From Brevibacillus brevis (GTDB lineage: Bacteria; Bacillota; Bacilli; Brevibacillales; Brevibacillaceae), in the NCBI RefSeq assembly GCF_900637055.1, contig NZ_LR134338.1, positions 4,181,001-4,245,000 on the forward strand: 64,000 nt of DNA, read 5' to 3'. This document shows positions 22,844-56,019 of this stretch, piece after piece; position 1 is the first letter of the stretch, and the number at the start of each line of letters is the position of its first letter. The position numbers and the translations under genes were made by a program. The notes beneath the pieces are model-generated. The model searched no databases and was not told the DNA's origin. It worked only from the letters and a program-made list of their open reading frames with translations.

Positions 22844-23989
22844 TTATTCTCGTACCAAGCGCTTTACAATCGCAGCAACCGCTGTAGCAGCCTGCTTCGC
22901 CTCTTCCACTGTATTCGTAATCCCAAAGCTGAAACGAATGGCTGAATGCGCAATCTTCTCGTCCAAGTGCATCGCTTTTAGAACGTGTGACAGCTCTAAT
23001 GATCCGGATGTACACGCTGAGCCACTGGCTGCTGCAATCTTGGCGATATCCAGATTCATCAGCATGGTTTCTGTATGGGCACCAGGGAAGGACACATTTA
23101 AAATATGGGGCAATGCCTGCTCGCTATGTCCATTCAGGCAGAACGTAATTCCTGCTTCCTGCCAGACTGCAATCATCGCTGCTTTCATCTGCTCATATTT
23201 TTCAACCCGCTCGGCCATTTCCTCGCCAGCGACCTTTGCCGCTTCGGCAAAGCCAACAATCCCGGCCAGGTTTTCCGTTCCCGCTCTGCGTTTGCGCTCT
23301 TGTGAACCGCCGTGCAATATCGGGGAAAACGGAACCTTACGCGCTAAATACAAAGCGCCGACTCCTTTTGGACCATTAATTTTATGGGCGGATACCGAGA
23401 GCATATCAACAGGCAGCTTCCGTGCATGGACAGGAAGTACACCAAAAGCCTGTACGGCATCCGTATGAAAAACAATCCCTTTTTCACGCAGGAAGGTACC
23501 AATTTCCTCGATTGGCTGGATCGTTCCTACTTCGTTGTTTCCGTACATAATGGACACCAGAACCGTATCCGGGCGAACCGCTTGTTTCAGGTCTTCCAAG
23601 CGGACCATGCCTGTCTGATCAACAGGCAAGTACGTCACTTCAAATCCAGCCTGCTCCAAAAATTCACAAGCATGCAAGACTGCATGGTGCTCGATTTGCG
23701 AAGTAATGACGTGACGACCACGTTCGCGCTGTGCCATTGCAGCACCGATGATCGCCATATTGTCGGCTTCTGTCCCGCCACTCGTAAAGATGAGCGATTG
23801 CGGATCAGCATCCATAAAGTCGGCAATCGTATCTCTCGCCTGCTCCAACGCTTTTCGCGCTTCGCGACCTGCACCATGGACACTGGATGGATTCCCGAAT
23901 ACTTGAGTCAAATAGGGAGTCATAGCAGCAACTACACGTGGATGTACCGGCGTAGTAGCTGCATGGTCAAAATACAATAGATCTGACAA
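22844..23989 (-). CDS. iscS: Cysteine desulfurase
   Basis: A 381-residue PLP-dependent enzyme that takes sulfur from cysteine for tRNA thiolation or iron-sulfur assembly. YFDHAATTPVHP opens the protein; the PLP lysine lies in SAHKINGPKG, and the catalytic loop cysteine in GSACTSGSLELSHVL. TTG at 23989 is favoured (AGAAGG eight bases upstream) over GTG at 23998. It sits downstream of cymR as in B. subtilis yrvO. There, mnmA/trmU follows and receives the sulfur; here a terminator and a chemoreceptor follow, so the partner must be elsewhere. Confidence 0.94.
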   Translation of the reverse strand: MSDLLYFDHAATTPVHPRVVAAMTPYLTQVFGNPSSVHGAGREARKALEQARDTIADFMDADPQSLIFTSGGTEADNMAIIGAAMAQRERGRHVITSQIEHHAVLHACEFLEQAGFEVTYLPVDQTGMVRLEDLKQAVRPDTVLVSIMYGNNEVGTIQPIEEIGTFLREKGIVFHTDAVQAFGVLPVHARKLPVDMLSVSAHKINGPKGVGALYLARKVPFSPILHGGSQERKRRAGTENLAGIVGFAEAAKVAGEEMAERVEKYEQMKAAMIAVWQEAGITFCLNGHSEQALPHILNVSFPGAHTETMLMNLDIAKIAAASGSACTSGSLELSHVLKAMHLDEKIAHSAIRFSFGITNTVEEAKQAATAVAAIVKRLVRE

Positions 23990-24020
23990 TGCTGTCACCT
24001 TCTACCAACTTATAGTACGT

Positions 24021-24186
24021 GTTCAAAAAGTCGGCTTTTTAGCACCGAGAAGATGGCGAGAACCGAACGAAGGAGGAGCGGAGTGTAGGTAATCTACATG
24101 AGCACCGGACTTCGGAGGTGAACGCCATATTCGATGTCGAATGAGCTTTCTGAGCTACTTCGTGATCAAAAGACGACTTTTTGAAC
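24021..24186. repeat. MITE-like inverted-repeat element
   Basis: A 166-bp non-coding element whose ends are inverted copies: GTTCAAAAAGTCGGCTTTTT on the left and the complement of GTTCAAAAAGTCGTCTTTTG on the right, each flanked by TATA within 11 bases. The inside contains further pairings (GAAGATGGCG with CGCCATATTC; TGTAG with CTACA). A remnant of the same family lies at 55996-56019. It occupies the iscS 5' leader, between cymR and iscS. No transposase is present, so mobilisation in trans is inferred. Confidence 0.75.
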
Positions 24187-24199
24187 AACCTCTTATATT

Positions 24200-24619
24200 C
24201 TAGATGTAAAACATATAATTATCAGCAGGACCATCGTCTTCAAAGCTGATCAAGTCTTGAAGGGAAGTCGAATCCAGAACAGCAGAAATACTATCCCGAA
24301 TACGCAGCCACAAATAACGCTTAGCCGGATCTTCTTCCTCTGCAAATTCCACAGGGCTGATCGGTCCTTCCAGCACGCGAATCACATCACCAGCAGAAAT
24401 CTCATCCGGCTGCTTCGCCAGAACGTAACCGCCATATGCGCCACGAATGCTTTTTACCAAACCCGCGTTACGCAGAGGCGCAATCAATTGCTCCAAATAA
24501 TGCTCGGACAAATCGTGTTTTTGGGCGATGCTCCGTAGTGAAGTCGGCCCTTCTCCGCAACGGTTGGCCAATTCCATCATGATCGTCAGCCCGTAACGTC
24601 CTTTCGTCGAAATCTTCAC
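24200..24619 (-). CDS. cymR: Rrf2 family regulator, CymR-like
   Basis: A 139-residue winged-helix transcription factor. KISTKGRYGLTIMMELA opens the protein and HDLSEHYLEQLIAPLRNAGLVKS forms the recognition region. It lacks the three clustered cysteines used by iron-sulfur Rrf2 proteins such as IscR, which favours CymR, the cysteine-metabolism repressor that acts with CysK. The neighbour iscS supports this. GTG at 24619 after GAGGAGAG; longer frames have no ribosome-binding site. Confidence 0.87.
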   Translation of the reverse strand: MKISTKGRYGLTIMMELANRCGEGPTSLRSIAQKHDLSEHYLEQLIAPLRNAGLVKSIRGAYGGYVLAKQPDEISAGDVIRVLEGPISPVEFAEEEDPAKRYLWLRIRDSISAVLDSTSLQDLISFEDDGPADNYMFYI

Positions 24620-24716
24620 GTTAACAACTCTCCTCTTTGTATCGGTAATACGCGCCCGCCCCCTACATGTCTTCTGTATCGTGGGACACACTAACATCTT
24701 AGGGGGTGATATGCAG

Positions 24717-27121: not shown

Positions 27122-27301
27122 AGGAGCCCCATTATGCCGTGTTGCTCCTTAGTTTTGAACCTGCACATCGCAGGTGGGTGTCTTGCCGAACTGTTACAGA
27201 CGTCCACTCTAAGGAGGCATGCCTTTACAATCACGGACGAAAAACTCCCTAAACAAACTTTGTGGCTCAAAACTATCGGATGTCACGAGCATCGCAGGGC
27301 T
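27122..27301 (-). ncRNA. ssrS: 6S RNA (BsrA-like)
   Basis: The roughly 180-base gap between tcdA and aspS has no credible ORF but folds as 6S RNA. The 5' end GCCCTGCGATGCTCGTG pairs with the 3' segment CACGGCATAATGGGGC through ATGC-CGTG/CACG-GCAT and GCCC/GGGC blocks. A long irregular hairpin lies between, and the RNA ends in a T run at 27115-27122. B. subtilis carries 6S-1 RNA near aspS and yrvM, as I recall. The RNA sequesters RNA polymerase holoenzyme. TATGAT at 27310-27305 is a suitable -10. Confidence 0.75.
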
Positions 27302-27353
27302 TTCATCATAGTATTACCAATGTATCAAAGAGCAATGCAGTTACGCAAGTCGA

Positions 27354-55893: not shown

Positions 55894-55995
55894 AGTCCAC
55901 TCTCCGTGAGCAAAGATTCTACACTCTACTGTAACACAAAGCTCCTAAAAAGCGAACGTGCATTTCCATTTTATATCCGAGTTCAAAAAGTCGAC

Positions 55996-56019
55996 TTTTT
56001 GAACAACCTTATAAAAAAC
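55996..56019. repeat. Palindromic remnant of the MITE-like element
   Basis: A perfect 24-bp palindrome built from GTTCAAAAAGTC and its complement GACTTTTTGAAC, flanked by TATA-tccga on the left and aacct-TATA on the right. It equals the two ends of the 24021-24186 element joined with the centre deleted. It lies upstream of ruvC on its 5' side. Confidence 0.7.

Follow-up and report, generated by a model that had tools for sequence, protein, structure and literature searches.

The closest known counterparts of the repeat analyzed here are bcr1–bcr3 of the Bacillus cereus group, which are MITE-like, carry a 5-bp A+T-rich motif (TTTAT), occur in high copy number at intergenic sites, show conserved folding, often lie inside transcripts, and have been reported as specific to that group, with bcr1 measuring 147–167 bp (PMC6542083, PMC3446304, PMC2267715). 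In a comparison by description only, they resemble in size, copy number, intergenic location, and fold a 178-bp element at positions 24015–24192 (+) of the window, by which we mean the whole stretch of 64,000 nucleotides analyzed from Brevibacillus brevis NZ_LR134338.1. However, in contrast to the host range of bcr1–bcr3, the element is found in Brevibacillus, Paenibacillus, and other Bacilli. Tn3-derived miniature elements (TIMEs) are non-autonomous and flanked by 5-bp direct repeats, as the element is. Nevertheless, Tn3-type inverted repeats have the form GGGG...TAAG, for example GGGGTACC...TAAG in the Tn3 copy of the genome under study, whereas the element ends in GTACGTGTTCAAAAAG / GAGGTTGTTCAAAAAG; identity with TIMEs was rejected owing to this difference in the ends. 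We know of no sequence relation between the element and Correia/NEMIS or ERIC repeats, from which it also differs in hosts and ends. Both kinds are mobile, small, and palindromic, and once transcribed they form folded RNAs that can influence neighboring mRNAs (review, PMC10969869).

An IS200/IS605-type or REP-type origin was also rejected, since such elements have neither terminal inverted repeats nor target duplications and the element has both. Its features are those of a MITE: terminal inverted repeats, a target duplication together with an empty site, a short length without a transposase gene, and many dispersed intergenic copies. Searches of Rfam 15, including HEARO and 6S, gave no relevant covariance-model match when queried with the window copy and with 19 loci from relatives, and a known ncRNA family was rejected on this basis. 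The open-access literature, which is poor in subscription journals, yielded no description of the element, and it may have been described before.

Insertion between cymR and the cysteine desulfurase gene

The element is housed in a 201-bp gap between two genes on the minus strand. The upstream neighbor is cymR (24200–24622), which scored 237 bits against the NCBIfam NF047409 cut-off of 195, and the downstream neighbor, recognized by a profile match, is a NifS/IscS-family cysteine desulfurase gene (22844–23998), for which the only cut-off passed was that of the PRK02948 IscS subfamily. These assignments agree with the location between cymR and iscS given in a preliminary description, which had reported a noncoding inverted-repeat element at 24021–24186 with TATA-flanked borders. 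Those coordinates correspond to the paired stem and fall short of the true borders, which were set from empty sites and direct repeats. The inverted repeat itself is real: the arms at 24020–24052 and 24155–24187 are 82% complementary, and folding compared with dinucleotide shuffles gave z = −4.9 for the element with its flanks and z = −5.95 for the exact element. Inverted-repeat and covariation analyses delimited a left terminal inverted repeat at 24015–24039 (+), with its stem arm at 24021–24039, and a right one at 24168–24192 (+), with its stem arm at 24168–24186. The ORF list of the element contains no frame of at least 60 aa, in keeping with the claimed absence of coding capacity. A 6S RNA gene is also present in the window, at 27122–27303 (−) (Rfam RF00013, 83 bits).

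Comparison with relatives shows how the element came to lie here. Three close relatives (G003, G004, and G012) preserve the site in its exact empty state: their gap between these two genes reads CCAACTTATATTC, whereas the window reads CCAACTTATA-element-TTATATTC, with the 5 bp TTATA doubled relative to the empty site. The two copies of this target duplication, at 24010–24014 and 24193–24197, were placed by the empty-site and direct-repeat comparison and account for the TATA-flanked borders noticed earlier. The exact empty sites in close relatives demonstrate that the element inserted into this gap. Eight further aligned congeners also lack it at this position, giving 11 genomes without it, and five genomes carry it there (G000, G005, G013, G014, and G019), one of them with an internal deletion. 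The most likely history is a single insertion in the ancestor of the five sampled carriers rather than a recent event.

Copies, hosts, and derivatives

The preliminary description had noticed two copies and would have been refuted by the absence of others; the repeat proved far more abundant, occurring many times over in the genomes of numerous species. In the genome under study, blastn found about 10 copies that are nearly full length, along with dozens of partial matches. About half of the sampled congeners carry the element, and the other positive congeners yielded 6 to 22 blastn matches each; in the congener survey, at most 20 candidates per genome were scored. In named genomes, exact end patterns were almost entirely confined to Brevibacillus, Paenibacillus, Cohnella, and Fontibacillus, with roughly four chance matches estimated for a collection of that size. 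The element is widespread in Paenibacillus and has diverged relatives in several other families of Bacilli. Outside Paenibacillus, plasmids gave no blastn match to the element, and a search of viral contigs found nothing.

The wider distribution was surveyed with a covariance model (R1), which scored the window copy at 207.8 bits and was searched against 398 Bacilli genomes. Matches occurred in 50 of these, many belonging to one family (f4) and weaker ones to other families, with 87 matches in one genome and 67 in another. Named contigs with exact end patterns indicate that this family is probably Paenibacillaceae. The palindromic ends cause R1 to match true copies on their reverse strand as well, with scores that reach 25–37 bits; thus, weak distant matches were accepted only when accompanied by a direct repeat or by the apical motif described below. 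Two loci with neither (L305 and L315) were not accepted as relatives on score, and a third (L314) was a low-complexity false match.

Target duplication is a general property of the copies. When the flanks on the two sides were compared at 96 distinct sites, they agreed on average at 3.51 of 5 positions, compared with 2.47 ± 0.08 for shuffled partners, and extension to 6 bp brought no gain. The 5-bp direct repeat was perfect at 36 of the 96 sites, with an A+T content of 94% in the perfect repeats, and in the diverged families it was perfect in 12 of 23 full-length matches. Copies are mainly intergenic, only 4 of the 96 overlapping a long ORF. These statistics, together with the empty sites and the terminal inverted repeats, bear out the MITE-like part of the preliminary reading.

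All copies share ends close to GNGNNTGTTCAAAAAG. Derivatives with internal deletions retain these ends and shrink to about 36 bp, the end-to-end forms measuring about 36–45 bp. The second copy in the window is such a form: identified at 55975–56010 (+), it comprises 36 bp in which both ends are joined without the interior. This palindrome has a ruvC-like gene on one side and the next ORF on the other, and similar end-to-end forms recur at five other loci (L368, L372, L374, L376, and L377). Tandem arrays of two to four copies were observed at L392, L393, L062, L073, and L077, with a unit of approximately 180–185 bp including flanking bases, which suggests either repeated insertion at one site or unequal recombination.

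A conserved fold on the plus strand

Covariation was evaluated over 50 pairs in an alignment of 30 diverse copies (A1). Standard pairs occupied 95.6% of the cells, compared with 36–43% in slid controls, and changes on both sides were seen in 27 of the 50 pairs, compared with 11 ± 1.9 after shuffling and 5–7 after sliding. These double changes are distributed across both the terminal stem and the long internal hairpin at 24054–24127 (+), which comprises helices 4–9 and bears most of the internal paired changes. As many of them separate two subtypes, the independent events are fewer than the cells counted. In the same 30-copy alignment, no double changes were found in helix 3 (GAAG/CTTC) or in helix 10, a small hairpin (ATTCGATGTCGAAT; 24129–24142, +) that is conserved in sequence and whose pairing lacks double-change support.

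The fold belongs to one strand. Of the two strands, the plus strand gave the more stable fold in 28 of the 30 copies, and the consensus energies were −42 and −24 kcal/mol, respectively. G-U cells outnumbered A-C cells by 69 to 24, which leans toward the plus strand, although one pair dominates this count and its omission leaves 41 to 24. Paired changes have thus maintained the plus-strand fold, which supports the suggestion in the preliminary description of a structured RNA that spreads.

Within the long hairpin, an apical motif at 24078–24103 (+), GC-GGA-GUGUAG-loop-CUACAU-GA-GC with a 3x2 internal loop, was delimited from motif searches and single-copy folds and is kept in diverged relatives. 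Nearly all diverged copies retain the form GGA-RYGUA...UACRY-GA with its internal loop, and GGARYGTA...TACRYGAG was present in 23 of 25 loci, L305 and L315 being the exceptions. Seven diverged loci folded singly each gave the same apical shape of GC, the GGA/GA internal loop, and a stem of 5–6 bp, including those in which the lower stem differs considerably. Across 1.83 Mb of loci, the motif occurred 155 times, 123 of them flanked by terminal repeats, compared with a single occurrence in shuffled loci. The new part is this conserved, strand-specific fold with an apical motif common to several families. In one diverged family, the stem under an unchanged motif is a very long, near-perfect helix (L322, 1501–1677).

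Possible roles of the fold and of a putative mobilizing enzyme

Taken as a whole, the element is probably a non-autonomous DNA transposon of the MITE type whose plus-strand fold serves the element itself. Its insertions lie in A+T-rich intergenic DNA and duplicate 5 bp of the target, and a hypothetical enzyme supplied in trans would act on its ends of about 18 bp. The fold may work at the level of RNA or single-stranded DNA, for example if a protein binds the folded strand or a transcript. At the present locus, such an insertion in the ancestor of the five carriers would have placed the element downstream of the cymR stop codon and ahead of the iscS ribosome-binding site, which it moves 183 bp further apart.

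Given this position in a transcribed gap, a cis-regulatory RNA of the cymR–iscS operon, whether riboswitch, attenuator, or processing site, has to be considered, and a weak terminator-like hairpin with a T run does point the right way (24024–24048 on the minus strand, the transcribed strand of cymR/iscS; one predicted, with 0.3 expected by chance). Such a role is nonetheless highly improbable: the gap lacks the element in the 11 congeners mentioned above, three of them close, other copies lie beside unrelated genes, and the element is antisense to the operon here. Relative to their neighbors, 25 copies are in tandem sense and 36 in tandem antisense orientation, so that copies are not aligned with host genes, and this speaks against a function within host mRNAs. 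An operon riboswitch was rejected because of the empty sites and this absence of orientation. Given the same lack of alignment, it is probably the element, and not iscS, that benefits from the fold; an effect on cotranscription of cymR and iscS, as suggested in the preliminary description, is a conjecture, and the insertion would change iscS expression mildly at most.

A fold that serves the element could also be a feature of DNA, such as a cruciform or a one-strand hairpin of single-stranded DNA recognized by a transposase or replication proteins, instead of an RNA. This is a reasonable possibility, although not the one we favor. In its favor, terminal repeats are inherently sites on DNA, no transcript is known, and copies occur in both orientations relative to genes. 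However, the upkeep of a double-stranded palindrome would favor neither strand, yet the plus strand is clearly the better folded one, and conservation extends to the unpaired 3x2 GGA/GA loop; both observations are compatible with a role as single-stranded DNA. Somewhat doubtful, in our assessment, is an ordinary MITE with a functionless interior, in which covariation would reflect the shared ancestry of two subtypes and arm-to-arm correction of the palindrome. The partition of many double changes between the subtypes is consistent with it, as are the end-only derivatives, which show that the interior is dispensable for persistence. Nevertheless, double changes affect 27 pairs in both the terminal stem and the internal hairpin, against 5–7 in slid controls, and the apical motif, with its non-palindromic internal loop, is kept in diverged copies with lower stems of unrelated sequence.

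Bacterial MITEs are usually viewed as decayed transposon ends with dispensable interiors. In contrast, the interior fold of this transposon-like element is kept by paired changes, and its apical motif extends across several families of Bacilli, raising the question of whether an element that lacks a transposase spreads, or is tolerated, with the participation of a folded RNA or strand. A bolder and unlikely reading is that the copies form a superfamily of mobile structured RNAs of Bacilli that has yet to be described, in which a protein-recognized apical GGA/GA RNA, and not an encoded enzyme, would enable persistence and spread across families. With the alignment and model, a large class of repeats missing from Rfam could be annotated.

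The preliminary description had proposed a search for empty sites and for a matching transposase; the former were found in three relatives, but the latter was not. End-pair, end-only, DDE_Tnp_1, and Tn3 searches of partial coverage revealed no transposase whose ends match. Inverted pairs of ends spaced by up to 5 kb, examined at 118 contig loci and in one Paenibacillus replicon, enclose only host genes, such as an mnmE-like gene and an ABC permease, and solo ends in six distant genomes adjoin host genes. Outer ends with a different interior proved to be miniature or deletion forms and end remnants, in which no transposase was recognized. The DDE_Tnp_1 loci of 6 genomes and the closely examined Tn3 copies, all from genomes with a heavy load of the element, carry other ends, and two Paenibacillus-type genomes rich in copies (G113 and G124) have zero DDE_Tnp_1 matches. 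One Tn3-family transposase gene in the genome under study (L435; C1 86500–93500), with a 990-aa open frame, lies about 2 kb from an element fragment; its end, of the GGGGTACC...TAAG form, is unlike the ends of the element.
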